The notes beneath the pieces are model-generated. The model was not told the origin of the DNA. It did not search any database and saw only the letters and a program-made list of their open reading frames with translations. A stretch of 64,000 bases of DNA from Antedon mediterranea (lineage: Eukaryota > Echinodermata > Crinoidea > Comatulida > Antedonidae): positions 29,461,871 to 29,525,870 of the forward strand of contig NC_092676.1 of the NCBI RefSeq assembly GCF_964355755.1. Reading direction: 5' to 3'. This document shows, in pieces, positions 34,901-58,266 of the stretch. A program made the position numbers and the translations under genes. The first letter of the stretch is position 1; each line of letters begins with the position of its first letter.

Positions 34901-37900
34901 GAGGATGCTAATCAAGAACAGGTAACGTATTCTTTTGTCTTTTTATTTTTGCGTGGCTTAATAACCTATATTGTTTACTATGCAATTCCAAAACAAAGAT
35001 TACATTACAAAGTACAGAAGAACCCTTCCTGTTCAAGAGACACCTCAATTAAAGGATACTGTGAAAAGAACAATTACCAATTTACTGTATATTTTTGTAC
35101 CGATGTAGCCAAACTCTAATATAAAGACACCCCTATTAAATGGACACTTTGTAGAGTCCCTGGTTTCTCTATATCAATCGTTCTACTCGGTACTGCATTT
35201 CTATTTGCTATTTATTATCCAAACTTACATTTGTTTTAGCCTAGTTCAGTAAAACCTCCAGCTCCCAAGAATCTCTGTGTAAGGCGTATATCAGAAACTA
35301 GTCTGCAATTGACCTGGACAGTGCCATTGCTAGCTGAAGGAGAGTGCATCCAGGGTTATACGCTCTGCATCTCACTGAACGATGACCTTATGCAGGAAAT
35401 GTCAACTACACAGACACAAGCTATTCTAGGTGGCCTTAGACCAGGATCATATCGGTAAATTTTGTTTTATTTTTTTTATTTTATGTCTTTAGGCAATGTG
35501 GCCAAGGATTACCAATAGTGAATTAATCACTGTCCTATCAGATAGGTGGTAATCCCCCTGATAGAGGGGCTATTGTGTAAACCAGTTCACCGGGGTAACC
35601 CCCTACTCTTTTCGAATAATGAACTGGGTTCTTTAAAGTACACACAAGTTATAACTGGGTACACTGGACCTACGGTTTATAGTCCTTATCCGAGAAGACT
35701 TGTTCCACCACCAGAACTAGAAGCGAGTCGGCCTCGAACCCTTGCCGATGTTGTTGGCTCTTTAGGTACGGTAAACGGCGCCCCTGCCTTAACCGCTAGG
35801 CCATATGACTTGCTCTAATAATAATAATAATATCCTGGATTTATATAGCGCCTAATGTTATAAAAATAAAAAATAAAATATAAAAATATAAATTTCAATT
35901 CAATTCAATTCAATTTCAATAAATATAAATTTCAATTCAACCTCTAAGCGCTGAACATTATTAGCCCAGTCATGTATGGAAACATACTCCCATAATGCAG
36001 CTAGTAATCAGTGCAAAGTTATGTCTTGATCTAACCGGGTTCCCATTTATACACCTGGGTGGAGAAAGGCAAAAGTAAGTAAGTATCAAGCAAAGCGGCA
36101 AGAGTGGGATTCGAACCTCGATCAGTAGTCGAATGTCCAACAAATGCCCTTAAATGCGTAAATGCTATTAAGCTACATTCACGATTGTATATGATTTTCC
36201 ACACTTGCGCAGTCTTAGTGTAACTGTACCTTTACGCTTTAATTATAAAATGACTACTAGGTACATAGTAGTACCCCAATCTAGTATTACAGTTTATACA
36301 GAAAATCTATTCTTTATTCCATTGTCATTGATTTAATTAAAACTGTTTACAAAAATGAATACAGTATTATCATCGGTAAACCAGGTTATTAGTCAACTAT
36401 TGGAACAAATGAATTAGAAAGAATTGTTATTGAATTAATTAGAATTGAAAAGATTAATTAACTTGAGATAGGACTTAACTTGATTTGTGAAGTGTTATAT
36501 TTTTTATTATTATTGTAGATTTAGCGTGAAAGCAACATCAATCAATGGTGACTCTGAAGATTCAAACATTGTCGTCTTTCAAATGAACACAATCCCGGCA
36601 ACCGATAAAACACCACCTGAAGAGAAAGACGAAGATGATGATTCTGATTCTCAGAAAGAAAATCCAAAGAATGAAAACAGTTCGAATGAACAAAATTCCG
36701 GAGATGCAGCTAAGAAGGAAGAGGCGTCTCAGAAAGAGACTTCAGGTGAAGACGTTACAGGTGCTAGCAAACGAATGATAGAATCCACTGCTGATTATGA
36801 AAACTATGAAGATATTGTTGATAGCACTTATACAAGACAAGATAAATCGATTGGAAGTGGTGGTATGATGGATCAAAATGATGGTTTTATAGTCAATGAT
36901 AGTCAGACAAATCAACTTCATTATAAAATCACTGATAGTCAAGAAAATCAACTTCACCAGATTAATTGTGACAGTTTAGAAGTTGCAAATGATTGTCACT
37001 TTGAAAATGATTGTCACTTATCACAGTTTGTTGAGTCTGAAGTGGACAATCTAGAAGGTGAAACTCTTCAGAAGCTAGAAGGTGAAACTCTTCAGAAGCT
37101 AGAAGATGAAACTCTTCAGAAGCTAGAAGGTGAAACTCGTCGGAAGCTAAAAGGTGAAACTCTTCAGAAGCTAGAAGATGAAACTCTTCAGAAGCTAGAA
37201 GGTGAAACTCGTCGGAAGCTAGAAGATGAAACTCTTCAGAAGCTAGAAGGTGAAACTCTTCAGAAGCTAGAAGGTGAAACTCTTCAGAAGCTAGAAGGTG
37301 AAACTCTTCAGAAGCTAGAAGGTGAAACTCTTCAGAAGCTAGAAGGTGAAACTCTTCAGAAGCTAGAAGGTGAAACTCTTCTGAAGCTAGAAGGTGAAAC
37401 TCTTCAGAAGCTAGAAGGTGAAACTCTTCAGAAGCTAGAAGGTGAAACTCTTCTGAAGCTTGAAGGTGAAACTCTTCAGAAGCTAGAAGGTGAAACTCTT
37501 CAGAAGCTAGAAGCCAAGGCACATATTACAAACATGTCTGGAGATGCTAGGTTTGATGAAGAGTGTGAGCTGTTCAGTCATGGAGATAGCTTGTTAGGAA
37601 AGGTGCAACTTGATTTATCACTTTTAGAGGAGGATGAGGATAAACTTGATAAAATAGAACATTTGCAGACACAAAATTCAGTCTCTTTGTTAACTTCTAT
37701 GGTTACACCTTTACCTTCTGTAAACTTGCCAGCCAAGTCTTCAGACAAAGGTGAAGTTTTAGAAGAATTGAACAACAAACATGTGCCAGAAATCATAGAT
37801 GACAAAAGTTTAAATTTAGAAACAACGGATTTGGCAAAAGAAACTGAAATAGAACCAAAAAGGATAGACGATGAAGTTTACTCGGTGAAAACAAAAGAGA

Positions 37901-40900
37901 TGACTGATGTAAGATTCGAACCAGAAATTGCAGATGCTAAAACTAATTCAGAAAGAATGGAATTCAATGAAGAGACTAATACTGTCCGAATTAAACAATC
38001 AAGCAAGATGGCCGCCAATTTTGCAGTATTAAATGCGTTTGCATTCCAAGCTTTTGAACAGTCACGAAAGCCATCGGAAAGTGACGAGAAATGTTATAAA
38101 TTGCGGCAACCAAAATCTATGTCTGTTGTAACTGCAGATGTATCAAATGCGATCACAACAAATCCAGCAAAGCAACCAAAAGATCCCATCATTAGCATTG
38201 ATGACAAACCAATTCTGACTGGTTACAGTCCCGAGTCGGATACCGAGATCACTTCAGAAAAAAGACAAACACATGCGTTAGGGCGTCCAAGTAGCATACC
38301 TATATCACGGTCCAGATCAGTGTCACCTAGCAAAAGACACAATCACCAAACAATGCCACAGGTAGGTAGACAATAGAAACACAGATTTTATAATGAAACA
38401 CAATGTTCTATTTAAATTTATTTTACCTCAGTACGTTGTCCCATAATAATCAAATAATAGTGTGTAATTGCATTTACAGTGATTACTTGATATTTTAATT
38501 TTCAAAACATATTAGTTTGTTTAATCTAAAAATGTCTCCCTCTTGTGATCTATTTGGATACACACTACCGCTAATACTAAATAATTATTTAATTAGGAGA
38601 TTAATATAAATATATAGTACATTATTTTATATTTAAAAGTCATGAAAATAGCTTGTTGTTGTAAACAATTGTAAATCTAGTTATAAAAACATCTATTATT
38701 TACAGATTAGATTAAACAGACAAATTCATTTTAATGATACCGTAACTCGTCCAAATAGTGAAATTATCAACATCCAAATAAATTTCACTGACCGTACAAT
38801 ATATAATTATTATTTAAAATGCAATTCAACTATATATTAATGTTAAATTTACTGTACATTACAAGTGAAATTATCGACTGCTTGAATGAAGCATTTGATT
38901 TCAGTAATACATTACAACATTTTTTTTTAAACACAATGTTAAATATAGTGTACGTTAGAAGTAGATAAACGATTGATTCAATACTATCTTTTCCCACTTT
39001 AGACCATTGCATTAATGGCTTGGTAAGTGGTTTTTGTTTGAAGCTCTGTCCACACTACTAAACTTTATGTGACAAAAATATGTGCCCATATATGGACACG
39101 ATGATGTCATATCACTACCATATTTGGGCACATCACACTTTTGTTGTCAAACTAGTTTGATAGTGTAGACAGAGCTTTACAGATATTGCATGTGATATTC
39201 ATTTTGTATTCTATGCATACTTTGATGTGCGTGTGAGACATTCATCCCTGTTGATTGTTGTTATAAACATATCAAAACACCTTTCATATGAAACTATTCT
39301 GGCCACCTTTCTAGACCCTTTTCTTACACCTTCCTCCCCCTCCCTCACCTTTTCTTACACCTTCCTCCCCCTCCCTCACCTTTTCTTACACCTTCCTCCC
39401 CCCCTCCTCACATTTTCTTACACCTTCCTCCCCCTCCTCACCTTTTCTTACACCTTCCTCCCCCTCCTCACCTTTTCTTACACCTTCCTCTCCCCCTCAT
39501 CACCTTTTCTTACACCTTCCCCCTCCCCCCTCATCACCTTTTCTTACACCTTTCCCCCCCCCTCCTCCTCACCTTTTCTTACACCTTCCTCCCCTCCCCC
39601 CTCCTCACCTTTTCTTACACCTTCCTCCCCCTCCTCACCTTTTCTTACACCTTCCTCCCCTCCCCCCTCCTCACCTTTTCTTACACCTTCCTCCCCCCTC
39701 CTCACCTTTTCTTACACCTTCCTCCCCCCCCCCTCATCACCTTTTCTTACACCTTCCTCCCCCCTCTCCTCACCTTTTCTTACACCTTCCTCTCCCCCCC
39801 CCTCCTCCTCACCTTTTCTTACACCTTCCTCCCCTCCCCCCTCCTCACCTTTTTTTATACCTTCATAACTTGTTTGCTTGCTGTGTATATTTGTGCTTAC
39901 CACATTTCATGATGTGTATACTGTATTTATTTTTCTTATTTAAAAATTAGGAAGACTTTGTTCAGTCTTGCAAATTTATATGTTCCTGTTTTAAACGCAC
40001 ACATGTAGTTTAGTGTGGTAGTGTGACTATCCCAGACAAACTTGTCCAACAGTTGGTTTTACACTTGTGTCACAAACTATGTGAGTTATGCACTGACTAC
40101 AGCTTTGCAGGATTCAACTTTCACTAGCTGCGTTGAAACTGGTTTGTCAACTTCTAAGAAAATAACTACTGCCCTCACTAGACGAAAGTGTCTTGCACAA
40201 GAAACTTTAGAAACAAGTCTAGAACTGCCGCTTCTGCATCTTTCCTCCAAGAACCACTGCCTCTGGTACATACTTGAGCCCTATGAAATTGTATGAACAT
40301 TTTTTTAGCTTATTAAATCATGTGTGTACACAAACAGCAAGCCACTTCAGTGAAGGGAGTTGGTTTGTGGTTGTGTTCAAAAGACGCATTCAAGCACTTG
40401 CCATTGACCCCTGAAATATCTCAATTCTTATAGGAACTTAATTAAATTGAGACAAGGACAATCTTCAAGTTCTCAACTTGTTCTTTGTTCAATGGAGGTA
40501 CATCAGGCACAAGCTGTCATTTGTAACTCGGTTCACACTATGTTGTAAGGGTGTGCTGTGTGTTGGACGTGGGACTACTGATCGTGAGATCAGGGGTTCG
40601 AATCCACACGCATTAATTGTATCCTTGGGCATGAGACTTTATTTATGCTTGCCTCTCTCCACCCAGGTGTATAAATTGGTACCTGGTTAGGTCAAGACAC
40701 ACCTTTGCATTGATTACTATCTGCATTATGGGAGTATCCATACATGTTTGAACCAAAAATGACTTGGGTACATCGCGTTAGGCGCTCTATAAATCCAGAA
40801 TATTATATTATTACTATTTATTATATAAAAGTTTAATTTGGATAAATTGAGTTTACACATACCTGAACAATCTGTACTATTTCATTTTTAACGGTCACTG

Positions 40901-43900
40901 CCAGGTTGAGATCTGACCATGACTCAATAACTGGACACACTCTTATAAATCTTTTATCTTCTTCTGATCTCTTTGTTCTGTTTACCAATCTCTCGCTGTC
41001 AAACATCGTCATGTTACTGTGTTCTGTAGCATTATCGCCGTCGTTTGCTGTTTCCAAATTTATTACCAAATTTTCATTTTTGGATTTTTTTGCAGTTTTC
41101 AAATTTTTATTGTATTTGTACTTTAACCATTTCAGATATTTTTGTTGTACTTTTAAAGACTTTGGCGTATTATTAAATTGATTAATTGTTTGATTTTTTT
41201 CAACACTTCGCTCACTTCTTTGATTATTAGCAGAACATCTTGCTCGTACTCTTGTATGTTCTTTTACAGCTTCAATTGATGCCAGGTTTGAAATCGTAGC
41301 TGAAGATCTTGGCTTGCCGTCTCGTGGTCGAGATGTAAAGAAGCCTTGGTATTCGTCTATTATTTTCCTCTCTTCGTCGTTGTCTAATCTAACTACCTCT
41401 GTATTTATTTTTGCGATTTGAACGCCATTGTCGACTTGTATTTCTATAGTTTCTAGTTTACGAAATGCTTGCGATATTGACAAAGATGTGGATAATCTGA
41501 ATAGTGTGCTCACTAATGCCAATAGAACCAAGCACTGTATTCGTGGGAAATTCATTTTAATGATTAAATTCTGGAATAAAAAACATTTCTTTGGTTAATG
41601 ATAAAAAAAATAAAGCAATAATGTAATGTTTGCAGTAACAGAATGTAAACTTACCTTACGTAATGGATCCTATGACAATGTAAACTTACCTTACGTAATG
41701 GATCCCATGACAGAATGTAAACTTACCTTACGTAATGGATCCTATGACAGAATGTAAACTTACCTTACGTAATGGATCCTATGACAGAATGTAAACTTAC
41801 CTTACGTAATGGATCCTATGACAGAATGTAAACTTACCTTACGTAATGGATCCTATGACAGAATGTAAACTTACCTTACGTAATGGATCCTATGACAGAA
41901 TGTAAACTTACCTTATGTAATGGATCCTATGACAGAATGTAAACTTACCTTACGTAATGGATCCTATGACAGAATGTAAACTTACCTTACGTAATGGATC
42001 CTATGACAGAATGTAAACTTACCTTACGTAATGGATCCTATGACAGAATGTAAACTTACCTTACGTAATGGATCCTATGACAGAATGTAAACTTACCTTA
42101 CGTAATGGATCCTATGACAGAATGTAAACTTACCTTACGTAATGGATCCTATGACAGAATGTAAACTTACCTTACGTAATGGATCCTATGACAGAATGTA
42201 AACTTACCTTACGTAATGGATCCTATGACAGAATAACGTTTTAAAAACTTAATATCTCTCTTCAAAGAATGTTGAATTTCTTTATATACTGTTGCGACAT
42301 CCCACTCGGGTACCAAACAGACTTGCTCATTTCATTGGTAGGAGCAGTAACAAAATTATGAATAATACATTCTTGACTAAAACATTGCAACTAAATGTAA
42401 ACTATTACAATGTCCCCTGCTAGAAAAATGGAATAACCACTTGAGAAAGTTAAAGTATTAGCACAAGTCGTACTAAATATTCGTGTGCCCAGATGGTTGC
42501 GCGACCACTTGAGCAAAATCAAGGAGATCTCCACATTGCAGACTTCAACATCAATTAGCCTGTTCCGAATTCAACACTTGTTTTATAGTTAAATAATAAG
42601 AACTAATTATTTGTGTGGTTTATTTATAATTACCGGTACTCATTAATTTCTTGTCTGTAAATGTTAATTAAAAGTTGTTTATGTCATCTTGCCTTGCAGG
42701 ATGTAGTTTCCATATTAAGAATTTTAAATCATTTTTGTTTGAGCAACATTCTGCTCACAGCACTCGCTTGCAATTTTAGTTCATATTAGGTAGTCTTTTA
42801 TAAAATATTGGGGCCGTAGCCACCAGTATGCTTAGTAAGGTTTCGACCTGACAACTTTTTCACAAAGGCCTTTGACAACCCAGTGACTCTAACAGAGATT
42901 GAAACTTGAAACTTGTTGTGTGTGGGTATAAATTACATAGGTTAATTTGCCTCTTGTGACTCACAGTCAGTTATGCTTCAAAGCCCAGAATGGTACTAAG
43001 AGATTGTTCCCTTTTCTTGCGAAAATCGGACCACTTTATTTCTCGTGGCTACATCACTGAATAATATCCGTTAAGTTAAGTCAACGACCTACATTTGAAC
43101 AGACCCTGAGTTAGTTTCCTCATAATTTAAAGATTTGAGATGCTAAGTTTCATGCTTCTTTAAGTTTAAGCTTTTTTTTAACATTGTCATAATTGGTTTA
43201 GTTATTTTATTTTATTTTAACTAAACAAGTTATGACAAATTACTGTACACTAATGATTCAAAACAGTTTGTTTTGTCAAACAGTTTTTTTTGTCAAACGG
43301 TTTGTTTTGTCAAACAGTTTGTTTTGTCAAACTTATTAATGGATTCTCTGCTTAATAACCATTAAAGAGCATATTTTTCTATTTTATCTGGTTTCCATCC
43401 AGGTCTACTTTTAACAACGTACAAAGACCATCGTAATATAAAATTACAAACAAGAAAAATATTAATTTTTGTGATATCTTCAATATCTGTGGTTACATTA
43501 TATCCGTGTTGATATTGTATAGATTGTGTTAAGATTACACTAGTGACCAGATGTCAATGGTCTTTGTAAGGTCAGCATGCACTTGACCATCATGCCTTCC
43601 TATCTCCTTACAATAGTCTCTTCACTTCAATACATTGAGTAAACAATCATAAAAATAATTTTTAATTTTGGTAGGTCACGGTCATATAACGACAGCAGAC
43701 GGATAAATTAATAGATTAATAATTAAAATGACTTTTTTGACAATTCGGTAATTTTCAAGGCGTCAAGTGACCGATTACGGATTAAGGAGACAATATTCTG
43801 GACAAATAAATAAATTTTTTATGATTTATAAATTACGAGTATGATTAGTTTTCTTTATGTTAGTTGGATTGATAGATTATGTTTGATATTTTAATATAAT

Positions 43901-53477: not shown

Positions 53478-56400
53478 ATGGCTCCAAATGAAAATGGTAA
53501 GCAACGTCACGGCAGTCTCGCATCAGGTTTGCCACAACGCATAGCGGACAGTGATCCGGCCGTCAAAGAAAAGATCCGGCAGAAGGTAAAGAGCGATATT
53601 TTTGTGAATCCAGAACCGCTGAAGCCAATGTTGTTCTTCAACATGTCCATTTTTTCTTTCTTGCTACCTGAGCATTGGGGGTTTCAGCCAGCAGACTTTA
53701 TGAACAGCCTCTATATGAGTCTTTTAGATCTCAACATAATGAAGGCGTTTGAGACCAAGGGAATCATCAATTGGAACAACACTTTCACAAAACTCTATCC
53801 TTTGAAAACTACAGGTTTGTGCTTTTCACTTAAATAATTACAACGCTAAAAAAGAAGTCATGAAAAACAAAAAAAATGAAGATAAAATTGGAAAATACAG
53901 TCAACTGGCCATTTGTTACTTTTTATGAAATTTATTGAAGATAGGTGTGTGGGATAACACTCAAGCACAGGATTACATTCTTGAAATTATATAATTTGAA
54001 TCCTATTCCTGGTTTGTTTAAATTTGTTTTGTAATTTTACTGTTGTGTACTGGGCCCTCTGGGAGAAAAGTTTTTTTACTTTTACTGAAGAGGTCACCCA
54101 GTATAAAGAACAAATAAATAAATAATTATTAATAGAAGTGCAAAAAGAAAATTCACTCATAAACTCTTTCAGTTAGTGATATTGTTTAAAAGCAAATTTC
54201 TTGTTTAACCATCATTTTGTTATATCATATTTGAAGGTGATGGTAACTGCTTGTTGCATGCCATCTCCCTCTTCCTGTGGGGAATTGAGGATCTTGATCT
54301 ACAGATGCGTAGAGTACTCTATCAAGATCTATTCAAGGACAACGGAGTTAAGAAGTATAAACAAAGATGGCAACTTAGAAGAACAGCGTTTGATGAAACA
54401 TTACCCTCTGGTGGCTTGCGTTACGACACGATGGTTAGTTGTATGGTCATATTCAGTGGCGTCATGGCTACCATCTGCTAGTAGAACAATATATTACCTT
54501 TACCTGCTTTATTTATAACAACCCTTGTGTGTCATACAGTAAAGCTCTGTCTAACAGTATCAGACTGTGATGTGTCCAAATAGGGGAGTGATATATCATC
54601 ATGTTTTATGTCATGACTCATATATTAACTTTATTTATAACAAAACCTGTGTGTCATACAGTAAAGCTCTGTCTAACAGTATCAGACTGTGATGTGTCCA
54701 AATAGGAGAGTGATATATCATCATGTTTTATGTCATATATTTACTTTATTTATAACAAAACTTGTGTGTCATGCAGTAAAGCTCTGTCTAACAGTATCAG
54801 ACTGTGATGTGTCCAAATATGGGAGTGATATATCATCATGTTTTATGTCATGACTCATATATTAACTTTATTTATAACAACCCTTGTGTGTCATACAGTA
54901 AAGCTCTGTCTAACAGTATCAGACTGTGATGTGTCCAAATATGGTAGTGATATGACATCATGACAGAGCTTTAGACATGAATAAAATTGCACAAAACCAA
55001 AGCAGAGCAAAGTGTATTATTTTTATAATACTTTACCATAGAAACACACCTTGTACATTTATCAATTTTACAAGTAAATTTTAATACCAAATTTCAATAT
55101 AATTTAATTGTTGAATCCTATTTTTTTATGAATCTAGAACTGGGATGATGAATGGAAGTTAGTCATTCGTAATTCATCCCCAGAACCAAATCCAGAGGGC
55201 CAACATATGTTACCGTTTCACTCTCTGGAAGAAATCCACATATTTATTATGGCAAATATTCTGAGAAGACCGATTATTGTTCTGGCTGACACAATGTTTC
55301 GGGATCACAGAGGGCAGTCTCTCCAGCCACAGAACGTTACAGGAATATACCTACCAGTACTTTCAAAAAGCAAAGATTGTTGTACTTTACCAATTATTCT
55401 AGGTTACCATGGAAACCACTTTGTACCGTTAGTGGGTAAAAAACTTCTACCAGATGAACATTTAGAAATGGCTTTACCGCTTTGTACTAAAGATATTGAA
55501 GCCTTTCCGGTACACTTTCTGCTTCCGGACGAAGAAGCAACAAAGTTTAGTCTGTTGGAATCATATTTGAGTCAGAAAGCACTACCACAATCTGGGATTG
55601 CTGACACAATGGTCGGTATACAAGTAACCATACTCGGTGATAAACAGTTTAATGAATCTGTTAATATTATGGAAACGTACTTCAGGTTAGCAGAAAAGAA
55701 TTACCGAACAGGATCGATGTTCACTCCGCAAAAAAAAGTAGAAACAAGAACTGAATCTGGAAAAGCAGGTGTCAAGATCTGTTGTATGTGTAATAAGAGT
55801 CCAGCTGACGGTGAAAATGATGTGTGCAAAGAGTGCTTAGTGACCACTTGTACGAGTTTTCATCCTTCTGCCTCAGCTCCGCCAGTGAGTATGCCAATTG
55901 ATAGATTCAATGATATGACATTGGAAGAAAATGGAGGAAAGGATCCTCATGAATCAGTATATAGAGGACAACCTCTACTACCATCAGCATCAAATTTTGA
56001 CAACAATGCTCAACAATGCTACTCCATTTGCGTTGACAAGCCTTGCAAAACTCCTGGATGCCAATTTTACTGTTCATCTAAGCTACCTGGTGATTACTGT
56101 CACACATGTGGCTTCAACGCACCAATGGGACAGCAGCATAACCCAATGGGACAGCAGCATAGCCCAATGGGACAACAGCATAGCTCAATTGAGAAATGCA
56201 GAACAACTGGTTGTTCTAATCTAGCTAATTTTGACCGACAAGGTCTTTGTGATCTCTGCTCTGAAACACAGCAATATAAGAAGCCAAGTCGTCCACAAGT
56301 AGTTGGATATGATCTACCTTCTCCGCCACTACCTACAGCCTCTGGATTCCCATCTTCATACAAAGAAAGGTCAAATGCTCCAATTGACCCAAGCGGTTTA

Positions 56401-58266
56401 GATAGCTTGCAGATCTTACAATCATCTACCGGAACTAAGAAGTGCCTTGAAAGAACTTGCAAGCTAACCGGTCAGGAAGCCTTTCAGGGTTTCTGCCAGA
56501 GATGCTATCATAAAAATGTCGATATAAAGAAACGTGTTGAGAGTGTTCCACAACAGAGGATACTAACTAGTACTCTGAAGCAAGGTTCGATGGTACCAAT
56601 GTACTCGGCGGTTAGCAGCGTGGAAGTGTGCAGAACAAAGAATTGTAACTTGTTTGGTACCAAAGAGCAAAATGGTTATTGCACCAAGTGTTTGGGAGAC
56701 GTGTTGATGAAAGAAAGTAATAAATGTAAAAACCACTGGTGTGGTGGACAAACCTTTCACGACGGCTACTGCAAAGAATGCTTTGAGCATACTCCTAGAC
56801 TAGGGGGAGAAAACCTGTCTTCAAACGTCACCTGTGGTCAGGCAATTTCTTTACCAAATCTTTGCATAACTAATGGATGCCAAGGTGTCATCGTAACACT
56901 AGGTGATGGAAAACATTGTCACGGTTGTCACAAAGAAAAAAATGACACTGTTCAACCAATGATGAAGTGCGTCTATCCAAAATGTAATGAAATGACGCCC
57001 AGAGATCAACCAATATGTATAAATTGTCAGGACATCTTAGATGCTAACAAGCCAAAAGATGTCGTTGCTACAGAAACACCAGCGCCCACTACAGCCTTAA
57101 AACTGGCATGCAGTATTTGTCGTAATAGCTTTGCAGGAAGTGATGGCATTTGCAACATATGTAGACCTTATAGTAAGTTATTATTTTTACTAAAATTCAA
57201 AATTATGTTTTGTTTTCCTTATTTTTGTAATTCACGAAAATGGAGGTAACTGACAATTACCAGTTGCGCAATGTAATATATGTATACTGAAGAAGAAGAA
57301 CAAAAAAAAAAAGGACTTCAAAAGAGTCTTTCTATGTACAGCATTATTTAGATACAGTGTTTTGAATTACTAAGCTCTAAATATTATATTTGTTTATAGA
57401 AAAGAATGGTGGAAATGCCACTAATGAAGGTACTCGTTGCAAGAGTCCAGGTATGTTATGGATTGTTGGCTAAACTCTTCTAAGTTTACAGGACCTATTT
57501 TAACAATGTTCACAATTAGAAAGCTACATCTGACACTATATTATTTTTTACCATTTATGTTAGACAGGTATAAAAGACTGCTTAATGATATATATAACAC
57601 TAAATACATTGTTTATTGTCATGACCCCTCACTTCACATGTCTTTCCTAATATGCTTTATAAAGTGTGGCATACACATTAATGTTACCAACACTTAATAG
57701 TAGACATATATTGATTATAAAAATGATAATGTGCTGTTTTCATAACACTTAATTAGACTTTAGACACTAAAGTAAGATAAAGATTGAATACACTGTACGT
57801 ATATGTTTATTAATTTTATAACTGTATATATATATAATGTCTTGTAGGATGTGATATGTTTGGGACGGCAGAGCATGATTGGTTATGTTCCAAATGCTAC
57901 TCTAATAAACCAGCAAAACGTGAAAGCCACTCAGCTCCAATCAAATCTTGCATGACAAAAGACGAACCGTATAATCCGAGAAAATGCGTTAATGGCTGCG
58001 GAGGATGGGCCAACGTTCAAGTTCTCAACGGCTTGTGTAATGATTGTTATCAGTTGTACAAGACTGATAGACCAGGTAAAGGCTCACAGACGCCCGGGAA
58101 GGTCTCGCAGTCCGCAAGAATAGTAAACGATCCGCAAGGATATCAAGCTGAACCAAGGAATCGCAATCGTACGGACGGAAAATGCTTCAACCCAAAATGC
58201 ACGAATCGTGGAAATCCCAAGTCACATGGCTTCTGTAATTCTTGCTCAAAAAAGTTAGAAGTGTGA
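53478..58266 (+). CDS. TNFAIP3: A20 / TNFAIP3 orthologue: OTU deubiquitinase with ~12 A20-type zinc fingers
   Basis: Five exons (53478-53814, 54237-54433, 55138-57172, 57400-57450, 57848-58266) join in frame to 3039 nt, 1012 aa. The OTU domain spans about 30-370: catalytic Cys117 in GDGNCLLHA and His272 in YHGNHFVPL, 155 residues apart (153 in human). Very close matches to human A20 include NWDDEW and SLEEIHIF with NILRRPIIV. Twelve Cys4 fingers follow, near residues 391, 480, 531, 613, 675, 708, 753, 788, 835, 870, 918 and 984. Most have the A20 pattern C-x4-C-x11-C-x2-C, for example CRTKNCNLFGTKEQNGYC; fingers 1 and 9 begin CxxC. Human A20 (790 aa) has seven. A20 edits ubiquitin chains on NF-kappaB pathway proteins such as RIPK1 and limits inflammation. 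Start: ATG after an acceptor at about 53460. Orthology is firm; activity is inferred from retained catalytic residues. Confidence 0.95.
53815..55137 (+). other. A20 introns 1 and 2
   Basis: Intron 1 (53815-54236) holds a retrotransposon-like 3' tail at about 54030-54130 (GTACTGGGCCCTCTGGGAGA through CACCCAGTATAAAGAA and AAATA repeats). Intron 2 (54434-55137) holds about four ~120-bp tandem units (54505-54965), each with the start of the AGCTCTGTCTACAC-type MITE (AAAGCTCTGTCTAACAGTAT). Confidence 0.7.
54505..54965 (+). repeat. ~120-bp tandem repeat containing a MITE end, ~4 units
   Basis: Units share TTTATAACAAAACTTGTGTG, TCATACAGTAAAGCTCTGTC and TAACAGTATCAGACTGTGAT with GTGTCCAAATA. A MITE fragment seems to have been caught in a tandem amplification. 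Confidence 0.85.
56118..56186 (+). repeat. 21-bp coding repeat in A20
   Basis: Three copies of CCAATGGGACAGCAGCATA-type units encode PMGQQHN, PMGQQHS and PMGQQHS between fingers 2 and 3. Confidence 0.9.
57173..57847 (+). CDS. TNFAIP3: A20 exon 4 (51 nt) between introns 3 and 4
   Basis: The coding part is 57400-57450 only. It is joined to exon 3 by a split Lys codon and to exon 5 by a split Gly codon, completing finger 10 as TRCKSPG with CDMFGTAEHDWLCSKC. Acceptor TTTGTTTATAG and donor CCAG/GTATGT both look good. The rest of this span is intron with nothing identifiable. Confidence 0.85.

Follow-up and report, generated by a model that had tools for sequence, protein, structure and literature searches.

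The locus described here raises the question of whether a growth-factor-like ligand can lack exactly one disulfide bond of its cystine knot, the knot usually being taken as the defining and stabilising element of this fold. It concerns a gene on the minus strand of the window, i.e. the whole stretch of 64,000 nucleotides of Antedon mediterranea DNA that was analysed (contig NC_092676.1, positions 29,461,871 to 29,525,870), in which two exons between positions 41555 and 40086 encode a precursor of 295 amino acids as rebuilt from the sequence. The usual three bonds of the six knot cysteines are I-IV, II-V and III-VI, and Cys 68 and Cys 110 of NGF are the partners III and VI. The sequence-only reading had taken the gene for a single unusual ligand, neurotrophin or Spaetzle-like, in which just the III-VI bond was missing. 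We consider it likely that the gene instead belongs to a clade of secreted ligands that has expanded and diverged within the neurotrophin/Spaetzle/coagulogen superfamily, with a two-bond open knot. As far as can be read from the sequences, the one-bond-short pattern is real and common to this clade. That is, the mature domain is conserved over about 90 residues and carries Cys I, II, IV and V; the site of Cys VI holds Ala or Gly, and in six of seven members the likely site of Cys III holds Ser.

The window gene is made up of the following features:

40863-41555, minus strand: coding part of exon 1, 693 nucleotides (open frame of 253 amino acids), with signal peptide, prodomain, RTKR and the start of the mature part including Cys I (207)
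41481-41555, minus strand: likely signal peptide of about 25 residues (hydrophobic start, judged by eye from the translation)
40968-40979, minus strand: RTKR furin-type cleavage site, residues 193-196 (motif)
40935-40937, minus strand: codon of Cys I, residue 207, equivalent to NGF Cys15 (translation, profile match, alignment)
40281-40862, minus strand: GT-AG intron of 582 nucleotides, phase 0 (site and phase equal in six paralogs)
40086-40280, minus strand: exon 2, with Cys II (246), Cys IV (259), Cys V (289) and its own stop codon (translation)
40236-40238, minus strand: codon of Cys II, residue 246, equivalent to NGF Cys58 (translation, profile match, alignment)
40221-40223, minus strand: Ser codon TCT, residue 251, at the likely Cys III site, Cys II+5 (seven-member alignment; Cys III spacing differs among six-Cys relatives)
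40197-40199, minus strand: codon of Cys IV, residue 259, equivalent to NGF Cys80 (translation, profile match, alignment)
40107-40109, minus strand: codon of Cys V, residue 289, equivalent to NGF Cys108 with a one-residue gap (translation, alignment)
40101-40103, minus strand: Ala codon GCT, residue 291, at the Cys VI site (seven-member alignment)

When re-derived from the sequence, the gene model, the RTKR site, the mature part of 99 amino acids and the cysteines at 207, 246, 259 and 289 given by the sequence-only reading all proved numerically right, and both the C-x5-W feature and the spacing of 12 residues between Cys 246 and Cys 259 were present. Two more cysteines of the precursor lie at residues 8 and 107.

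The genome to which the window belongs (354 Mb in 18 contigs) was searched with the window mature domain and then with three paralogs, and a fourth paralog query added one more locus; all candidate counts are lower bounds. Six further two-exon loci were found, namely C7b (C7:21.38M), C11a (C11:15.14M), C11b (C11:17.66M), C1a (C1:36.47M), C1b (C1:7.72M) and C6a (C6:22.93M). What had been read as a single unusual ligand is therefore one of at least seven related genes, and an accident of one gene is rejected by the seven loci. The window protein appears to be a secreted precursor with a basic cleavage site, its signal peptide being judged by eye; basic runs before Cys I are also seen in C1a and C1b and are not evident in C11a and C7b. 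In all six paralogs with both exons, a GT-AG phase-0 intron lies at the same site, after a conserved Gln. It is mainly because of this shared position that the junction 40863/40280 of the window gene (CAG/GTATGT ... TTTCATAG/GGC) is accepted, and homology of the intron site supports it as correct. The exon 2 frames of all seven genes end 3-5 residues past the Cys VI site. An extra 3′ exon supplying both missing cysteines is ruled out, since Cys III must lie between Cys II and Cys IV, within exon 2. A chance resemblance or a wrong splice model would be in keeping with the weak Pfam scores given below and with a gene model read from genomic sequence, but the intron site common to the seven genes and the shuffle controls make this explanation very improbable.

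A locus on C5 (L029, C5:18808500-18814000) is a truncated copy of C1b that comprises the first mature exon and its flanks, with 95% identity over 366 bases. Its donor is apparently changed, and no exon 2 was seen in the 5.5 kb covered, for which reason it was excluded from the seven. Weak matches at C9:25928538 (three stops) and C7:1786932 (one stop) also stand outside the count.

The alignment of the seven members shows Cys I, II, IV and V in every row (7/7). The Cys VI site, two residues after Cys V, is occupied by Ala in six members and Gly in one, and by Cys in none, while the residue at Cys II+5, the likely site of Cys III, is Ser in six and Cys in one (C11b). The alignment supports the earlier claim that the missing cysteines are the partners III and VI (NGF 68 and 110). 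The same reading had described a loop shortened from 21 to 12 residues between Cys II and Cys IV. Twelve residues are indeed present in six members (11 in C1b), and the shortening holds relative to NGF, whereas the six-Cys genes on C2 of this genome have 16 and 17 residues and coagulogen has 12. Random loss of two of the six knot cysteines would remove partners in 3 of 15 cases, so that the loss of a partner pair in a single gene is weak evidence and the weight lies on the family-wide pattern. This pattern is shared by descent, and the loss of the pair therefore probably counts as one event.

Which cysteine was kept near the C-terminus depends on how the end of the domain is aligned. The residue preceding Cys V is Ser in four members and Cys in three, and the six-Cys genes on C2 and C4 end in SCCxC or TCCxC. 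The kept cysteine was assigned to V because the (S/C)-C-x ends of the members match these six-Cys ends, despite an ungapped count that places it one residue earlier. The CC at Cys V in three of the seven members supports retention of V and loss of VI, and the three CC paralogs likewise speak for a probable equivalence of Cys 289 and NGF 108. Alternatively, the kept cysteines could be I, II, IV and an extra cysteine preceding V in CCxC, in which case both V and VI would be lost and the pairing would not be I-IV/II-V. Counting without gaps from the last beta strand does put Cys 289 at NGF 107, and hhalign also placed it one residue off, but the (S/C)-C-x-(A/G) of the members mirrors the six-Cys (S/C)-C-x-C, including the alternation of Ser and Cys, and we regard the alternative as unlikely.

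Cys III is found at II+5 (C-x4-C) in the six-Cys C4 gene with two displayed splice sites, while the C2 genes and coagulogen have it at II+7 and NGF at II+10. Because its spacing varies in this way among six-Cys relatives, a replacement in place is only likely; that is, the cysteine may have given way to Ser at Cys II+5, with no loop deletion involved. C11b (L018 3384-3599) has Ala at the VI site and two extra cysteines in the loop, at II+5 and two residues before IV. These two new cysteines could bond with each other, making C11b a possible intermediate or a case of a rewired bond.

To what family do such ligands belong? The window protein scored 18.3 bits against Pfam Coagulin (PF02035) as a whole and 21.3 bits (E-value 0.00027) with its mature part, relative to a cut-off of 25, whereas the mature part reached 13.6 bits against NGF (PF00243), below the cut-off of 27. 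Spaetzle (PF16077) gave no match to the window protein at E-values up to 10, and the whole protein also matched three unrelated Pfam families at E-values of 0.13-0.6. Among the seven members, Spaetzle was matched by three (best E-value 0.028), NGF by two (best 0.00027) and Coagulin by one (21 bits; likewise one of five in an earlier five-member scan), and three unrelated families were matched by one member each (best 0.0077). The scan of the six other members gave E-values, with bits not listed, so the comparison with cut-offs applies to the window protein only. The IL-17 family was not among the six Pfam families matched by the seven members at E-values up to 10, under HMMER filters that drop most weak matches, and IL-17 membership was rejected for want of a Pfam match. 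A search with PF02035 over the whole genome produced no match, and neither did its control.

Stronger similarity emerged from profile-profile comparison (hhalign), in which the family profile matched a five-row superfamily alignment (A3, including two exon 1 fragments and one NT-3 chain) with P 95.1 and a score of 46.6, the maxima being 18.7 in 200 shuffles with the Cys columns fixed and 18.8 in 200 full shuffles. When a profile of the seven members was searched against the PDB at E-values up to 10, all 15 sequences matched were NGF or BDNF chains or coagulogen (best E-value 0.018), with the NGF and BDNF chains placed above coagulogen. One of the matches is deposited as ovulation-inducing factor and also matches the genome's canonical neurotrophin. 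The window protein alone gave a single match in the PDB, to an unrelated chain (0.2). In a tree of 13 rows, the seven members were split from the six six-Cys rows with support 100/100, in a topology with several long branches, no outgroup root and the order within the seven not resolved; of the six-Cys-type genes, the first C4 gene (L019), L010 and L028 are in neither A3 nor the tree. All seven members have a Gln seven residues ahead of Cys II, a column that we ourselves identify with Gln44 of Wilson 2009 (PMC2772990), and in none of the seven rows is there a Trp after Cys IV (Trp130 of Wilson 2009). Taken at sequence level, homology to the neurotrophin/Spaetzle/coagulogen superfamily is supported. 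Of the earlier proposal of a neurotrophin or Spaetzle-like ligand, superfamily membership stood (46.6 against at most 18.8 when shuffled), while strict neurotrophin status failed on both the Pfam cut-off and the Trp signature. The family-profile check suggested for it gave a similar split, namely a shuffle-controlled profile similarity but NGF, Spaetzle and Coagulin scores that were below cut-off or without a match for the window protein.

The same data bear on a less probable, though serious, alternative: a diverged Spaetzle/coagulogen-type immune or clotting ligand, activated by proteolysis, in which the lost bond is one change among many. No Pfam family matches the window protein better than Coagulin, the alignment with coagulogen spans Cys I, II and IV and likewise has 12 residues between II and IV, and three of the seven members match Spaetzle weakly. 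Against this, the window protein scores below the cut-offs, the seven-member profile ranks NGF and BDNF chains over coagulogen, and Wilson 2009 (PMC2772990) reports no Spz in deuterostomes.

For the divergent open-knot clade that we favour, the following course can be proposed. A furin-type protease would cut the precursor at RTKR, and the mature chain would fold in the manner of a neurotrophin protomer, held by the I-IV and II-V bonds alone. The ring usually closed by III-VI would stay open, so that I-IV would no longer be threaded. The ligand would probably be dimeric, covalently where an extra Cys adjoins Cys V, as in three members, and non-covalently in the rest. A cell-surface receptor is predicted, with a Toll/TLR-type receptor as a first but doubtful guess, Trk/p75 as a less probable second, and otherwise something else; everything in the mechanism past secretion and folding is a guess. 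The III-VI loss would most likely have occurred once, ahead of the family expansion. A fuller scenario, which we put forward tentatively as somewhat short of evenly balanced, is that the III-VI bond was taken apart a single time, by changes of Cys III to Ser and of Cys VI to Ala/Gly, and that the genes dispersed over four chromosomes only afterwards, giving knotless ligands among which C11b would represent an intermediate or a rewired bond.

Several observations weigh against this interpretation. No Pfam family passes its cut-off with the window protein, which is why the seven genes are called a divergent sister clade rather than canonical neurotrophins or Spaetzle. The PDB E-values are individually weak (0.018-0.78), and an earlier five-member profile ranked coagulogen first (0.045) and included four unrelated proteins. 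Aligning Cys V with NGF 108 takes a one-residue gap, and the variable position of Cys III leaves its former site in the seven-gene family uncertain. The junction and the genes are known from genomic sequence, and the receptor proposal is a guess from gene counts. A single-sequence AlphaFold2 model was all-helical, the five models having mean predicted local distance difference test scores of 78.1, 77.1, 35.1, 33.8 and 33.5; we regard this result as an uninformative artefact of folding without an alignment, but it lends no support to the proposed fold. In C11a (L015, C11:15139000-15144500) the frame is broken in the prodomain, the signal-peptide frame and the mature frame being out of register, which may reflect a pseudogene, a missed intron or an assembly error. 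Finally, of 21 pairs of mature domains, 20 have a synonymous divergence (dS) that is saturated or exceeds 2.7, and in the sole unsaturated pair, C11a-C7b, the nonsynonymous divergence (dN, 0.40) about equals dS (0.38).

The C11a frame break, the near equality of dN and dS in C11a-C7b and the C5 exon fragment with no exon 2 seen could also suggest decaying duplicates, i.e. relaxed and partly pseudogenised genes whose knot is eroding. We find this rather improbable, since Cys I, II, IV and V and the Gln are invariant in all seven members despite dN values of 0.40-1.48, and the Ala/Gly and Ser replacements are common to members. Fast change combined with fixed cysteines would fit rapidly evolving immune or recognition ligands.

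A canonical six-Cys neurotrophin exists separately in the genome (L001), in one open frame of 250 residues that matches an NT-3 chain with an E-value of 3.6e-21. Several Spaetzle/NT2-like genes, all weak by Pfam, are located on C2, C4 and C6, and the 38 TIR matches found at E-values up to 0.001 represent many candidate receptors. At C4:32443000-32460000 (L019, L020), three or more Spaetzle/NT2-like genes are clustered; in the one with displayed splice sites, the intron lies just past Cys II, unlike the site in the window family.

Two further features are located near the start of the window gene:

41638-42234, minus strand: 37-bp tandem array of about 16 copies, probable donor region of an intron in the 5′ untranslated region (repeat and motif counts)
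42282-42288, minus strand: TATATAA, box-like, possible promoter (motif)

The array sits just downstream of the TATA-like box. A perfect donor, AAG/GTAAGT, occurs in it 16 times and an acceptor-like TCTGTCAT(A/G)GG 15 times, the AG being absent in one copy, so that an intron of the 5′ untranslated region starting in the array would have 16 equivalent donors. All eight genome matches listed for the 37-bp unit, in a search that skips common words, fall in the array at 41638-42234. A strand-skewed minisatellite with 31- and 66-bp units (39317-39864) is found just downstream of the gene. Elsewhere in the window, an open frame of 630 codons (36484-38373, plus strand) contains many tandem KLEGETLQ-like repeats and has a sole Pfam match, under cut-off, and at 55138-58263 (plus strand) an OTU protease domain in one open frame is followed by an open frame with an A20-type zinc finger, so that this may be a deubiquitinase gene of the A20/Cezanne-like kind.

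In the titles and abstracts surveyed, which covered open-licence PMC literature, no report of a four-Cys neurotrophin family was found. If the reading is true, this natural loss of one ring bond would allow the parts of the knot to be tested for their roles in folding, dimerisation and receptor binding. It would also add to the range of neurotrophins in invertebrates, and the genome concerned has retained a canonical neurotrophin along with Spaetzle/NT2-like genes and dozens of TIR matches.

With the neurotrophins NGF, BDNF and NT-3 (PF00243), the window family shares the prodomain, the basic cleavage site, C-x5-W, the Gln before Cys II and Cys I, II, IV and V; unlike them, it has neither Cys III nor Cys VI, no Trp ahead of Cys V, and an intron inside the mature domain. 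Sea urchin NT2 and acorn worm NTa/NTb were compared by description, and the accessible part of Wilson 2009 gives them knot Cys I-VI and mentions no missing knot cysteine. The same part reports that sea urchin NT2 and some Spz carry an extra Cys beside the fifth knot Cys and form covalent dimers (PMC2772990). By that account, the window family resembles NT2 in its multi-exon precursor, and NT2 and NTb in the extra Cys by Cys V of some members. It is like Spaetzle (PF16077) in being a processed ligand and in the CCx end of three members, where the last Cys of CCxC is replaced, and unlike it in that Spz has six knot cysteines and the members match it weakly. To coagulogen (PF02035, 1aoc) it is similar in the register of Cys I, II and IV and the 12 residues between II and IV; coagulogen, however, retains a middle Cys in the II-IV loop and has more disulfides, and the window protein scores 21.3 against its cut-off of 25. 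In IL-17 the ring bonds are kept and it is the threading bond that is missing; the window family would be the reverse case, short of a ring bond. For IL-17 members, a published account describes a knot fold with four cysteines, the third bond of other invertebrates being replaced by two Ser in chordates/vertebrates (PMC4517768). Given this four-Cys precedent, a knot-fold cytokine that is one bond short is already known, and the window family would be like chordate/vertebrate IL-17, as described there, in being a cystine-knot-like cytokine with two of three bonds, the third Cys pair of IL-17 being changed to Ser.

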